Assembly (NCBI RefSeq): GCF_000482705.1
Contig: NZ_AXWO01000001.1
Coordinates: 310,001 to 374,000 of the forward strand
DNA length: 64,000 bases
Direction: 5' to 3'
Source of the DNA: Glycomyces arizonensis DSM 44726
GTDB lineage: Bacteria > Actinomycetota > Actinomycetes > Mycobacteriales > Micromonosporaceae
The position numbers and the translations under genes were made by a program. This document shows, piece by piece, positions 16,436-35,965 of this stretch. Under the pieces are notes generated by a model. That model searched no databases and was not told the origin of the DNA. It saw only the letters and a program-made list of their open reading frames with translations. Every line of letters begins with the position of its first letter. Position 1 is the stretch's first letter.

Positions 16436-17877
16436 CCGCACCACGCGCCGAACCGGACCGGGCCGAGCTGCGCGGCACCGCGCGCGGCGGCCTGGTGAAC
16501 CTCGTCGGCGCGGCGGTCGCGGGCGGCGGCGGCCTGGCGGTCACCTGGCTGGTGGCCATGGCGCTCTCGCCGTCCGACGCGGGCGCGTTCTTCTCGGTGA
16601 CGTCGGTGTTCCTCCTCGCCGCGGCGCTGGCGCGCCTGGGCACGCCGACGGGGCTCGTGTACTGGGTGGCGCGGCTGCGCCAGGCGGGCCGGGAGGCGGC
16701 GATCGGCTCGGTGCTGCGGATCGCGCTGCGCCCGGCCGTCGCGGTCGCCGTGGCCGCCGCGATCGGCCTGTTCGCGGCGGCGCCGATGTTCGCCCGCCCC
16801 GAGCTCGTACGTCTAGTGGCGGTCTTCCTGCCGGCCTCGGTGGCGATGGAGGCGCTCCTGGCGGCCACGCGCGGCTACCGGCTCATGGGGCCGACGGTCC
16901 TGATCGACAAGTTCGGGCGGACGCTGACGCAGCTGGCGGCGCTCGGCGCGGTCGTCTTGACCGGCGCGTCGTCGGCGCTCGCGGTCACCGCCGCCTGGGC
17001 GCTCCCGTACCTGCCCGCGGCGGCCGCGGCCGGGTGGTACCTGTGGCGGCGACGGCGCGGGGCGAGCGACCCGGGGTTCCCCGACCGGGTGCAGGCCAGG
17101 GCGTTCTGGGGCTTCACCGCACCGCGCGCGGTCGCGGGGGTGGCGCAGATCGGATTGCAGCGCCTCGACATCATCCTGGTGGCGGCCCTGGCCGGGCTCG
17201 GGGCGGCCGCGGTGTACACGGTGGCGACGCGGTTCGTCATCGTGGGGCAGTTGGCGTCGGGGGCGGTCGGGCACGCGGTGCAGCCGCGCGCGGCGGCGGC
17301 GATGGCCGCCGGTGAAGCGCTGTCGGCAAAGCGGCTCTACCAGGAGTCGACGGCGTGGATCGTGGCGCTCACGTGGCCGGTCTACCTGACCGTGGGGCTC
17401 GGGGCCGATTACTACCTGCGGCTGTTCGGCGGCGGGTACGCCACCGAGACGGCGCGCGCGGTGGTGTGGGTCCTGGTGCCCGCGATGATGACCGGCGCGG
17501 CGTGCGGCGTGGTGGACTCGATGCTGTCGATGGCGGGGAAGACCTCGTGGCAGCTGGCCGACGTGGCGATCGCGCTCGCGGTCAACGTGTCGTTGAACCT
17601 GCTCTTGATTCCTTCGCTCGGCGTCGTCGGCGCGGCGATCGCGTGGTCGGCGGCCGTTGTGGTGAATAATCTGATTCCACTCGCGCAATTGTGGCGGACC
17701 TTCGGATTGCATCCGTTCGGCGCGTTGACCAGGCGGTCGCTGCTGGCGACCGGCCTCGGCTTCGGTGCGGTGCCGGCGGCGATGGGTCTGCTCGGCGCGG
17801 GGTGGACATTGACAGCGCTCGTGGCGGCGGGCCTCGCGTGGGCGGGGGTGCTGCTGCGTTACCGACGCAGAATTTAG
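16423..17877 (+). CDS. Wzx-type polysaccharide flippase (MOP superfamily)
   Basis: A 484-residue protein with twelve to fourteen hydrophobic helices and the MOP/oligosaccharide-transporter pattern: a glycine-rich first helix (NLVGAAVAGGGGLAVTWLVAM) and alternating paired helices. Wzx proteins move undecaprenyl-linked repeat units to the outer face of the membrane, where the Wzy-like protein would polymerise them. The TTG at 16423 is the best start I see and overlaps the sulfotransferase by 13 bp; a start a little further in cannot be excluded. Its TAG stop lies within the first palindromic element. Confidence 0.8.
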   Translation: METLTAPRAEPDRAELRGTARGGLVNLVGAAVAGGGGLAVTWLVAMALSPSDAGAFFSVTSVFLLAAALARLGTPTGLVYWVARLRQAGREAAIGSVLRIALRPAVAVAVAAAIGLFAAAPMFARPELVRLVAVFLPASVAMEALLAATRGYRLMGPTVLIDKFGRTLTQLAALGAVVLTGASSALAVTAAWALPYLPAAAAAGWYLWRRRRGASDPGFPDRVQARAFWGFTAPRAVAGVAQIGLQRLDIILVAALAGLGAAAVYTVATRFVIVGQLASGAVGHAVQPRAAAAMAAGEALSAKRLYQESTAWIVALTWPVYLTVGLGADYYLRLFGGGYATETARAVVWVLVPAMMTGAACGVVDSMLSMAGKTSWQLADVAIALAVNVSLNLLLIPSLGVVGAAIAWSAAVVVNNLIPLAQLWRTFGLHPFGALTRRSLLATGLGFGAVPAAMGLLGAGWTLTALVAAGLAWAGVLLRYRRRI

Positions 17878-18041
17878 GGGGTGTGTGGTGGGTCAGGGCG
17901 AGGCGGTATCCGAGTCCGTTTGTTCGCTCGCAAGGCGGAAGGGCTTCCAGATCCCGGTGTTGGATCTGGGAGCCCGACAACGCAGCGAGCGGGCAAACGG
18001 GCCGGATAACGCCCGGTCTGACCCACCGCACACCCCCTAAA
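17873..18041. repeat. Long palindromic non-coding element, copy 1
   Basis: Outer arms 17873-17896 and 18018-18041 pair over 24 bases with one G-T mismatch. Inner arms continue the pairing imperfectly (left contains GGTATCCGAGTCCG, right CGGGCCGGATAACG). A terminal hairpin has stem 17941-17954 with 17962-17975 and loop CGGTGTT at 17955-17961. It starts on the stop codon of the flippase and ends 19 bp before the methyltransferase. It has no coding frame. A second copy at 19212-19478 has different stem bases but the same pairing and the same loop. Confidence 0.85.
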
Positions 18042-18060
18042 CCCCGATGGAGGATGGCGC

Positions 18061-18792
18061 ATGGCCGCCGATTACACCGAGGTGTTCCAGGACCTTTCCA
18101 CGGTCGAGAAGTACGCCGAGTACACGTACGCGCCCGGCACGTTCTCGTCGATCGTGGGCTCGCGGCAGACCGGTTGGCTGCGCGGGTTCGTGCCGACCGC
18201 GTTCGCGGTGCCGCCGGTGCACCACGACTTCGCCTGCGGCACCGGGCGGGTGGCGCGGATGCTGTGCGGCCTGGTGGAGGTCTCGCACGGGTACGACACC
18301 TCGGAGGCGATGCTGGCCAAGGGCGTCGAGGTGGGCACGCCGGGGCACGCGCACCTGGTGCGGCCCGGCCGGGCGGTCCCCGAGGCCGTGCCGGGCAGGC
18401 CCGCGCTGGTGACGGCGTTCCGCTTCGCGCTCAACGCGGACGGGTTCCTGCGGGACCAGATGATGGAGTTCGCCTCCCTGGCGCTGCCCGATGCGGACGC
18501 CGGGCTGCTCATGGTCGAGAACCACGGCAACGCCGCGTCGCTGCGGCACCTGCGCAAGACGTTCGGGCGCGTGGACGCCTCGACGTGGTTCCGGGAGCTC
18601 TCGCACGGGCAGATGCGGGCCCTGTTCGACCGGCACGGCTTCGAACTGGTCGGGATGCAGGGCTTCACGCTGTTCACGCAGGGGTGCTACCGCGGGCCGT
18701 GGGCGTGGGCCTCGAAGTGCGCCGACGCGGCGCTGGCCTCGGCGATGTCGAAGCGGTGCACCGACGTCGTCTACATCGCCCGCCGCCGCTGA
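18061..18792 (+). CDS. Class I SAM-dependent methyltransferase
   Basis: A 243-residue methyltransferase with motif I as DFACGTGRVARML (about residues 59-71) and a following acidic-position DTSEAMLAKG typical of the methyltransferase 11/25 group. The substrate is not evident; it lies within the polysaccharide locus, so methylation of a sugar or lipid carrier is plausible. GGAGG 7 bases before the ATG. It is bracketed by the two palindromic elements, which together with the flanking antitoxin fragment suggests a reshuffled spot. Confidence 0.82.
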   Translation: MAADYTEVFQDLSTVEKYAEYTYAPGTFSSIVGSRQTGWLRGFVPTAFAVPPVHHDFACGTGRVARMLCGLVEVSHGYDTSEAMLAKGVEVGTPGHAHLVRPGRAVPEAVPGRPALVTAFRFALNADGFLRDQMMEFASLALPDADAGLLMVENHGNAASLRHLRKTFGRVDASTWFRELSHGQMRALFDRHGFELVGMQGFTLFTQGCYRGPWAWASKCADAALASAMSKRCTDVVYIARRR

Positions 18793-18796
18793 GTCG

Positions 18797-18853
18797 TCAG
18801 GTCAGGCCGAGGATCCGACGCAGGATGAGCTCGACCCGCATGTGGCCCTGCGA
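18797..18853 (-). pseudogene. Possible remnant of a MazF-type toxin C-terminus
   Basis: Directly downstream of an antitoxin-like gene, one frame reads RSQGHMRVELILRRILGLT and then stops. This resembles the last helix of actinobacterial MazF/PemK toxins (pattern VE-x2-L-R-x-I/V-L-G-L). No longer toxin frame exists between 18797 and the antitoxin stop at 18919. The match is short, so this is only a suggestion of a deleted toxin. Confidence 0.3.
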
Positions 18854-18918
18854 TCGTGGCCGATCGGATCGCCGTGATCACACCGATGGTCATCGCGCCA
18901 CAGTCTCATAGCACGTCC

Positions 18919-19176
18919 TCACAGCACGTCGCTCCAGTCTTCTCGCTCCAGTCCGTCCGAGAGCGAGGAGGCGAATCGCTCACTCTGGCTCCGTAGGTCG
19001 GCCACGGCCGCGTGAGTTCCCATGGCGGATCTGGACTCGGTCCAGAACTCCGATTCCTCGGCGACATCGAGTGCGTGCTCGACGACATCGGCCATGGTCA
19101 GATGGCGGTCCTCCGCCAACTTGGCGATCCGGTCACGGAGCTCCACCGAAACTTTGATCGCAGCTGAACCGCCCAT
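18919..19176 (-). CDS. Orphan ribbon-helix-helix antitoxin-like protein
   Basis: An 85-residue protein beginning with an RHH-type segment (IKVSVELRDRIAKLAEDRHL, about residues 7-26) followed by a Thr-Met-Ala-Asp-Val-Val helix, and an acidic tail ending in WSDVL, a usual layout for MazE/VapB-type antitoxins of toxin-antitoxin pairs. The N-terminal segment would bind DNA and the tail would occupy the toxin. No intact toxin gene follows; only a short MazF-like scrap is visible. It may now be a simple regulator or be decaying. Confidence 0.7.
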   Translation of the reverse strand: MGGSAAIKVSVELRDRIAKLAEDRHLTMADVVEHALDVAEESEFWTESRSAMGTHAAVADLRSQSERFASSLSDGLEREDWSDVL

Positions 19177-19211
19177 GTCGAAAGTATGCCTCTGAGTGTG
19201 CGCGGAGCGCC

Positions 19212-19478
19212 AGGTCTGTCCTGTGGATCAGGGCGAGGTGGTATTCGAGTCCGCTTGTTCGCTCGCGATGCCGCTTTACGGCTCGCAAGCACCCTTGGCG
19301 AAGCTTGCAAGCCGTAAAGCGGCACTGCCGAGAGGGCGGAGGGGCGCCCAGATACCGGTGTTGTATCTGGGCGCCTCGACAACGCAGTCTTTATACAGAG
19401 CGCGATCTCGGGCGGGGGCGGGCGACGGGCGGGCCGAATGGGCCGGATAACGACCGGTCTGATCCACAGGACAGACCT
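19212..19478. repeat. Long palindromic non-coding element, copy 2, with nested hairpin
   Basis: Outer arms 19212-19231 and 19459-19478 are a perfect 20-bp inverted repeat. They are followed inward by the same partly paired blocks as copy 1 (left GGTATTCGAGTCCG, right GGGCCGGATAACG). The terminal hairpin (19343-19355 with 19363-19375) is perfect and has the same loop, CGGTGTT, at 19356-19362. Copy 2 also holds an extra hairpin at 19269-19324 (21-bp arms, one mismatch) that copy 1 lacks. One end touches the TAA stop of the wecG-like gene. Confidence 0.85.
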
Positions 19479-20323
19479 TAGGAGCGGCGCGAGCGAGCGG
19501 CCTCGGCGAGGAGGCGCAGGGCTTCGGGGACGTCGTCGAGGAGGTAGCGGCGGGCGAGGCGGCCCGGTTCGGAGGCCAGGCGGAACAGCCACTCGGTGCC
19601 GCTGCGCCGCATCCACTCCGGGGCCCGGCGCCGGTATCCGGCGATGAAGTCGATGCTCGCGCCGCAGCCGAGGAACCACGCGCGCGGCGCCACCGCGCCC
19701 AGGCGCGCCATCACCTGCTCCTGCTTGGGGAAGCCCAGGCCCACGTACACCAGGTCGGGGGCCGCCGCGTCGAGGCGGTCGACCAGTGCGCTCCAGTGCG
19801 AGTCGTCGTGTTCGAAGCCCATCGGCGGGCACCACGCGCCGACGGCCTTCAGGCCCGGGTAGCGCTCCTCCAAGACCGCCGCGGCCCGCTCGGTGGGACG
19901 CGCCGCCCCGTCGGGAGTGCCGCCCAGCAGCGCGATCCGCAGGCCGCGCTCGGAGGCCGCCACCGACAGGCTCCACACCAGGTCGGACCCGGCCACCCGC
20001 TCGGGCAGCGGCGTCCCGGCGAGCCTGGAGGCCCACACCAGGGGCGCGCCGTCGGCCACGACGAGGTCCGCGGCCTCGATGAGGGCGCGCAGTTCGCTGC
20101 TGCGCCTGGCGGCGGCCACGATGTCGACATTGGGCGTCACGATCTGCCCGCCGCGGCCGGACTCGAGCGCGTCGAGCACGCGGGCCACGGCCTGTTGTTC
20201 GTCGACTCGGTCGATGCCGATGCCGCCCAGTCGAATTCGAGGCGGTGCCGCGTCACCGCGCCCGCCGTGCCCCGCAGGGCCGAACCGCTCCATGCCATCA
20301 GACGGTAAGGGCCCGGGCCGCAC
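19478..20323 (-). CDS. WecG/TagA/CpsF family glycosyltransferase (GT26)
   Basis: A GT26 transferase, the family that adds the second sugar to a polyprenyl-linked GlcNAc or similar starter on the cytoplasmic face. The conserved TPNVDIV (early), DGAPLVWASRL and GFPKQEQVMARLG motifs are all present. The start is uncertain: GTG at 20323 gives 281 residues, ATG at 20293 gives 271; the conserved core begins after both, at IRLGGIGIDRVDEQQAV. It is divergent from the second sulfotransferase. Its TAA stop is the border of palindromic element copy 2. Confidence 0.88.
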   Translation of the reverse strand: MRPGPLPSDGMERFGPAGHGGRGDAAPPRIRLGGIGIDRVDEQQAVARVLDALESGRGGQIVTPNVDIVAAARRSSELRALIEAADLVVADGAPLVWASRLAGTPLPERVAGSDLVWSLSVAASERGLRIALLGGTPDGAARPTERAAAVLEERYPGLKAVGAWCPPMGFEHDDSHWSALVDRLDAAAPDLVYVGLGFPKQEQVMARLGAVAPRAWFLGCGASIDFIAGYRRRAPEWMRRSGTEWLFRLASEPGRLARRYLLDDVPEALRLLAEAARSRRS

Positions 20324-35796: not shown

Positions 35797-35965
35797 GAGT
35801 TTCCCTCTCTGTTCGGTCGCCGGGTCGGCGCATTGCTGGGCCGTGAACCGGTACCGCATCGGGCCCCGGAGTCCAGGGCTCTTGGCATGTGCGCGACCTG
35901 CGCACCGATTGACCATGATAGGCCGTGAGGCCGCTCTCAACCGGAGCGGCCTCAGCGGCGTTCGC

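Follow-up and report, generated by a model that had tools for sequence, protein, structure and literature searches.

The two palindromes in the window

The DNA analysed here, called the window, is a stretch of 64,000 nucleotides from Glycomyces arizonensis DSM 44726 (contig NZ_AXWO01000001.1, positions 310,001 to 374,000; genome of 5.05 Mb, hereafter G000). It contains two long palindromes, at 17873-18041 beside the stop codon of a flippase gene and at 19212-19478 beside that of wecG. Both are real, non-coding and homologous to each other, and are described below as copies w1 and w2 of one small mobile element with a conserved folded core. Positions refer to the plus strand unless stated otherwise. 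As described in the original prediction, the outer arms pair within each copy: those of w1 (17873-17896 and 18018-18041, 24 nt) show 96% complementarity and those of w2 (19212-19231 and 19459-19478, 20 nt) 100%. The loop CGGTGTT is indeed constant, lying at 17955-17961 in w1 and at 19356-19362 in w2, where it caps an inner hairpin of 13 bp. Three main inner blocks are common to w1 and w2 at 80-88% identity. The z values of the minimum free energy (MFE) against dinucleotide shuffles were -16.6 for w1 and -12.0 for w2. Since, in addition, more copies occur elsewhere in the genome, a chance origin of this pairing is excluded.

The element proper is slightly shorter than the palindrome, the flanking TA belonging to the target. 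The short form w1 (161 nt) occupies 17877-18037; its start is set at 17877 because the last base of the flippase TAG (17875-17877) is provided by its own first G. It is flanked by the duplicated target TA at 17875-17876 and 18038-18039. The two strands of its outer stem P1, considered to be terminal inverted repeats (TIRs), are 17877-17896 and 18018-18037. Inside them lie the conserved GCGGA (17935-17939) within the motif GCAAGGCGGA, the hairpin P3 with its loop, and the conserved ACAACGC (17977-17983), which might pair with the loop in a pseudoknot, although covariation there is weak. The long form w2, about 265 nt at about 19213-19477, has TA on the right (19479-19480) and CA on the left. 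Its arms are 19213-19231 and 19459-19477 and its ACAACGC is at 19379-19385; a nested hairpin (19269-19324) and additional 3' sequence make up the extra length.

The two copies had been described as lying in the same orientation. This holds for their cores, yet they are opposite relative to the gene whose stop codon each touches. Likewise, contact with a stop codon is real for both and common in the family, but the element does not begin exactly at the codon in either case: w1 starts at the third base of TAG, and w2 touches the wecG TAA (19478-19480, read on the minus strand) with its right end.

The nested hairpin of w2 is 22 bp long and of the TTTACGGCTCGCAAGC type. Similar short stretches occur elsewhere in the genome, on contigs C23, C5, C30 and C1, and it is perhaps a separate REP-like repeat.

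Distribution of the element

A blastn search with w1 and w2 detected additional copies and fragments in the same genome. A covariance model (R1) built from eight copies, outer-arm pairs included, matched 13 distinct places on 11 contigs of G000 at E <= 0.001, several of them decayed. It also matched in 21 of 22 Glycomyces genomes and in four of 19 genomes outside the genus. The numbers of R1 matches (17 in G000, up to 38 elsewhere) count both strands of the palindrome, and true copies are fewer. A covariance-model search of related genomes had been proposed in the original prediction, with absence of further copies and of covariation as the result that would speak against it; both copies and covariation were present. 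For the comparisons below a set of 112 copies was used, consisting of 101 of the better listed R1 matches (100 regions) and 11 copies of G000; the decayed G000 copies L013, L017-L021, L023 and L025 and some listed R1 matches are not included.

A pattern scan with the core only, which uses no arm information, gave at least 115 stretches, 80 of them in named loci. The matches listed came from Glycomyces, Stackebrandtia, Micromonospora, Actinocatenispora, Longispora, Rugosimonospora, Actinomadura, Nocardioides, Nocardia and Rhodococcus, and from another member of the Micromonosporaceae and actinomycete metagenome-assembled genomes. Altogether, the core is present in at least ten named actinomycete genera besides Glycomyces, Streptomyces plasmids among them. 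Two such plasmids carry copies; no annotated feature lies under the match, in a gene table that is incomplete, and one copy adjoins a transposase gene. In a Streptomyces cavourensis plasmid (L423:2463-3511), an insertion sequence (IS) with ends CTAAAGGTTGTTGCAGAA directly abuts the right end of a copy. A further model, R2, found the element in at least 14 of 296 genomes of the phylum, including that of the window; with strict filters and nine candidates scored per genome, this is a lower bound.

In distant genomes of the phylum, R2 also pointed to palindromes (L400, L401, L404, L405, L412 and L413), mostly beside TA, that have GCAAGGC-like and AACGC-like motifs with other loops and other ends. 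These perhaps represent a wider superfamily. A phage origin was considered and dropped: the phage search gave no match to the element, and of four pattern matches in IMG/VR, three looked chance-like by eye. The fourth (L426:658-813) resembles a relative, with the same core motifs and quite different ends (AGTCGACGCACTTGAGAA beside TA); it may extend the family beyond actinomycetes.

Variable arms with conserved pairing

The outer arms are highly diverse: 97 distinct left arms were found in the 112 copies, and left arms of different copies agree at 10.7 of 20 positions on average. Within a copy, in contrast, the two arms match at 18.3 of 20. Divergence was compared in 217 pairs of copies whose cores are 90% identical or more. 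Their arms differ at 6.9 of 18 positions; the rate of the core would predict 1.4, so that arms change about five times faster than cores. In these pairs, 1323 of 1491 differing arm positions are Watson-Crick paired in both copies. L008 and L009 of the window's genome illustrate this: their cores are 99.2% identical, and five arm changes in 18 positions are all paired. In three of the 112 copies fewer than 15 of 20 positions match between the arms; in L014 the arms have the outer eight bases in common and little beyond.

The same holds for loci collected with the core alone. Of 80 loci, 78 could be parsed, 60 of them outside Glycomyces; the other two (L239 and L268) lie at locus edges. The arms pair at 15 or more of 18 positions in 69 of the 78 and in 54 of the 60, compared with six of 152 random control places. 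By eye, arm types vary by genus, and some go with TNA instead of TA.

It was also considered whether arms co-evolve in place, at sites occupied in more than one species. Seven same-site pairs were examined, some of them inverted. Their members have closer core relatives elsewhere, and for this reason they are better read as independent insertions at sites that would have been reused. In the nearest pair, L171/L186, the members rank 14 and 3 of 109 in core relatedness; both this pair and L172/L184 were rejected as orthologous insertions. The rank figures are rough for decayed cores. The arms of L184 were out of register in the automatic trimming, which makes its 11/11 unusable, and a few other pairs, such as L128/L134, were affected likewise.

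The arms resemble the ends of insertion sequences

The arms were compared with seven IS ends from Glycomyces, two of which (L203 and L219) are themselves weak repeats (12 of 16). A match of at least 15 of 18 bases to one of these ends is seen in 42 of the 112 copies (34 with L192, seven with L043 and one with L044), and 11 copies match at 18 of 18. When the inner 11 end bases were shuffled in 200 control runs, the mean was 0.1 copies and the maximum five. The matched IS are 906-955 bp long, lie at DUF4096 (PF13340) loci and are of the IS5 type; they may belong to the groups IS427 and IS1031. Two are in the window's own genome: L043 has the TIR GGGCGTGTTTGAGAATT with CTA outside one end, and L044 the TIR GGCCGTGTTTACGAACTG with CTA outside both. 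L192, a 906-bp IS of a sister species whose copy has an in-frame stop, ends in GGGCCTGTCCTGTGAAT followed by C or G (that is, GGGCCTGTCCTGTGAATC or the same with a final G), with CTA and TTA outside. Thus the ends of these three IS, one end of L043 excepted, adjoin CTA or TTA. Immediately inside the ends of L192, the first bases are unlike those of the core of the element.

These ends, together with TA duplication and empty sites, are what would be expected if the element were an ordinary IS5-type miniature inverted-repeat transposable element (MITE), in which arm pairing is a by-product of serving one transposase and of template switching, the core a relic and its fold incidental. Template switching can symmetrise arms without selection, according to two studies (PMC8794818, PMC8604942), and the loop inversion of L182 and L187 described below and the unmatched arms of L014 are possible traces of template-switch or one-armed events of the kind treated there. 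We regard this explanation as possible, if on balance doubtful, in view of the core features presented below and of the slow change of cores relative to arms.

The near constancy of the core and the interchangeability of the arms could also suggest that the core itself is the mobile unit, inserting into pre-existing palindromes of IS ends, so that the arms belong to the target. Core-free arm hairpins are rare, however. The exact pattern TAGGGSSTG-gap-CASSCCCTA gave four loci in 22 genomes, too few when compared with two for the backwards control, and two of the four look like deletion derivatives. Furthermore, the empty sites lack the arms as well. This origin is therefore considered extremely improbable.

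Insertion sites and stop codons

The w1 locus is empty in all 21 other Glycomyces genomes compared, with 3-17 bases between the flanking alignments; in the relative G013 the empty site reads AGAATCTAGAGC. The w2 site is empty in G013, the sole informative relative of the 21. Of the 112 copies, 79 have TA at the left end and 84 at the right, 62 having it at both, and a TNA duplication was seen by eye in several copies of Micromonospora and Stackebrandtia. The suggestion of a mobile hairpin element is thus supported by its many copies, empty sites, TA duplication and IS-type ends.

Of 109 copies with sufficient flanking sequence, 62 have a junction that forms the exact stop codon of a coding frame. 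The left junction does so in 34 copies and the right one in 36, eight copies being counted for both. With the flanks joined in silico, 44 of 77 scorable TA sites are coding stops, compared with 305 of 1766 background TAs; as coding was judged by a simple rule of frame and third-position GC content, these counts are approximate. Abutment on stop codons, for which a test had been suggested in the original prediction, is frequent but not constant: 14 of the 109 copies lack a coding stop in the 100 bases to either side. As judged from the sequences, insertion duplicates TA and appears to favour stop codons, where the first G of the element completes TAG. The contact most plausibly reflects target-site preference or tolerance. 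Stop codons are thus used as places of insertion at which the host gene can remain unharmed.

The association with stop codons and the very high stability of the hairpins might be taken to indicate a device for the 3' ends of genes, either a terminator or an mRNA-stabilising hairpin gained at the stop codon. Termination as the main role, one of the roles originally considered, is disfavoured because the junctions with stop codons are about equally frequent on the left and on the right (34 and 36), although the fold is strand-specific. By eye, neither w1 nor w2 has, on either of its sides, the T-run that comes after the hairpin of an intrinsic terminator. The sites are empty in relatives, and TA targeting together with tolerance can account for the location at stop codons. 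A 3'-end device is accordingly very unlikely.

The conserved folded core

RNAalifold predicts three stems, P1 (the arms), P2 and P3, from 67 short-form Glycomyces copies. In this alignment 97.0% of cells are paired, against 80.3% after shuffling, and 662 cells are compensatory. A second alignment (A2) comprises 33 chosen copies, of which 27 are not from Glycomyces; double changes are seen there in 30 of 34 predicted pairs. The core is arranged as GCAAGGCGGAG, the hairpin P3 and ACAACGC, all within stem P2. Among 185 elements examined for their loops, 37 departed from the parsing pattern. The unpaired motifs GCAAGGCGGA and ACAACGC are nearly invariant in A2, that is, in 33 copies from several actinomycete families. 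This near invariance argues against an ordinary MITE with a relic core.

For the arms, the claim of the original prediction that selection acts on structure and not on sequence is too strong, their pairing being attributable also to the demands of one transposase and to template switching. Template switching is a partial alternative cause of the compensatory changes; it has no explanatory power for the conserved unpaired motifs or for the strand preference described below.

In L182 and L187, both of genome G010, the P3 loop is inverted to its reverse complement (CCAACACCGGG). This fits template-switch inversion, of which it is the expected outcome.

Two further readings of the loop were not adopted. 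A pseudoknot between the loop CGGUGUU and AACGCCG could form up to seven pairs in many copies from outside Glycomyces; CGGGGTT loops and AACGAAG variants are uncompensated, there is one compensated case (L016), and the distant L408 has another loop, and we do not claim this pairing. A coding role for a GTG frame that begins within the loop was rejected, as the loop and the length of P3 vary.

Strand preference of the fold

The plus strand has the lower predicted MFE in nearly all copies: this applies to 106 of the 110 from Glycomyces, to 74 of the 75 named ones and to all 60 from other genera. Dinucleotide shuffles of 33 copies (w1, w2, 20 drawn from Glycomyces and 11 others) gave a lower z for the plus strand in 31, with a mean excess of 3.26 standard deviations. 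The mismatches point in the same direction. In positions 1-19 of P1, G.T occurs 61 times and A.C 26 times on the plus strand (100 distinct arm pairs of Glycomyces; 16 to 3 at position 17 alone, 39 to 21 in positions 1-16). In other genera the ratio is 65 to 7 (51 distinct arm pairs). These counts exclude three copies with fewer than 15 of 20 matches, and related copies in them are not independent. With pairs predicted separately for each strand, the counts were 26 to 4 in A2 and 62 to 36 in Glycomyces. Symmetric repair of the arms would not give a plus strand that folds better in nearly all copies, which is a second point against the fold being incidental.

A strand preference of this kind would fit folded RNA and folded single-stranded DNA alike. 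The proposal of a structured RNA is therefore supported by the compensatory changes and the plus-strand preference only in part, because single-stranded DNA would give the same signal. Integron attC sites have variable sequence with conserved pairing and extrahelical features, and work as a folded single strand. The plus strand of the present element might similarly be recognised by its shape as single-stranded DNA in transposition or replication, like attC or the ends of IS200/IS605, the arms being free to vary as long as they pair. The many distinct arms with pairing kept fit recognition by shape, and random orientation relative to genes is also in agreement. The ends, however, match the TIRs of DDE-type IS, and there is TA duplication of the kind known from double-stranded DDE transposition; recognition as folded DNA seems unlikely to us.

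Relation to known elements

At the gathering score of Rfam, neither w1 nor w2 had a match, and only an L31 leader was found in the window; with E values up to 10, nothing was found inside an element at seven loci. The element agrees with MITEs in being small and non-coding, with TIRs, target duplication and empty-site polymorphism, and in having TIRs in common with autonomous IS (the 42 copies above). Like structured RNAs, it shows compensatory changes and a strand-specific stability beyond composition, with w2, P3 in Glycomyces and P1 position 20 as exceptions.

The closest systems are RUP of pneumococcus, Correia/NEMIS of Neisseria and ERIC/IRU of enterobacteria, which according to one study are likewise small and non-coding, with TIRs, TA ends and highly paired predicted transcripts (PMC2229807). 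RUP is considered there to owe its mobility to the transposase of an IS whose TIRs resemble its own (PMC2229807). In contrast to RUP, Correia and ERIC, the present element is GC-rich, its arms vary freely with pairing kept, and its ends are of the IS5/DUF4096 type; it also has conserved unpaired motifs, compensatory changes across genera and a plus-strand preference. No recognised description of this family in actinomycetes was found in the open-access literature searched, outside which most subscription papers fall, and the text of a 2024 review of prokaryotic MITEs has no word beginning with "actino" (PMC10969869).

With the DUF4096 IS of the IS5 family the element has similar ends, but it lacks a transposase gene. 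It is like attC in its variable sequence with conserved pairing and extrahelical features, and unlike it in having DDE-type ends and TA duplication. HEARO and omega RNAs, with other Rfam families of mobile elements, are structured RNAs carried by such elements; the likeness lies in an RNA structure on a mobile element, and the present element has no Rfam match. We conclude that the element is a variant of MITE, with a strand-specific fold that is real.

Proposed mode of propagation

The element is present in multiple copies, inserts at TA, has IS5-type ends in 42 of 112 copies and has a conserved fold. We infer from the sequences that the plus-strand fold is under selection. The most probable explanation, which we hold with reasonable though not high confidence, is that this is a non-autonomous IS5-type MITE with a strand-specific folded core, acting as RNA or single-stranded DNA, probably for its own spread. 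Each palindrome would be a copy moved in trans by IS5-type (DUF4096) transposases, to judge from its ends, with the P1 arms as TIRs. The comparison of sites shows that it inserts at TA, often that of a stop codon, and duplicates it, the first base G restoring TAG, so that insertion can be nearly harmless. Across actinomycete genera the core is preserved, while the arms vary and are similar to the ends of different IS. The plus strand seems to fold as a single strand. This fold, most likely as RNA, may serve the propagation of the element and not the neighbouring gene, because the core is kept although the orientation and place of copies are random. Pairing of the arms might be maintained since both ends must suit one transposase or the fold; template switching between the arms perhaps restores it as well.

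Several observations weigh against this explanation. For seventy of the 112 copies, none of the seven IS ends reaches 15 matching bases of 18, and the best-matching IS, L192, is from a sister species. An IS with an end near the w2 arm was not found in the window's own genome, where all seven pattern matches were element ends. Five genomes of other genera yielded no IS end that fits the arms, only a similar class of end and duplication. Concerning the sites, there are the 14 copies remote from coding stops, and for 32 of 109 copies the joined site offered no clean TA, so that they were left out of the stop-codon scoring. Since 101 of the 112 copies came from a model with P1 pairing, badly paired copies are under-sampled. 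As for the fold, w2 has no strand preference beyond composition (z of -12.0 for the plus strand and -12.4 for the minus strand), which would suit an ordinary MITE. The preference is reversed at P1 position 20 (G.T 3, A.C 11; 64 to 37 for positions 1-20), and P3 in Glycomyces shows none (24 and 21). The role of the fold in propagation is only inferred from sequence.

MITEs are usually regarded as dead internal-deletion products of a single IS. Here, by contrast, one folded core persists across genera with ends that resemble those of different IS. Going further, such elements could be mobile structured RNAs or folded single-stranded DNAs whose fold is needed for DDE-type transposition and whose ends are swapped so as to use whichever IS5-type transposase is present. 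We offer this only tentatively and consider it rather unlikely. If the fold does matter for movement, DDE transposition can depend on a structured RNA or a folded strand, which would be new to our knowledge. Even if it is irrelevant, the family provides a large natural record of complementary arms that should be useful for separating selection from template-switch repair.

Other features of the window

Between w1 and w2, a small open reading frame lies on the minus strand at 18919-19176. It has no Pfam match at E 0.001, and the far end of its region is unaligned in 20 of 21 relatives. The L31-Actinobacteria ribosomal protein leader (Rfam RF03158) is located at 35815-35857 on the minus strand.

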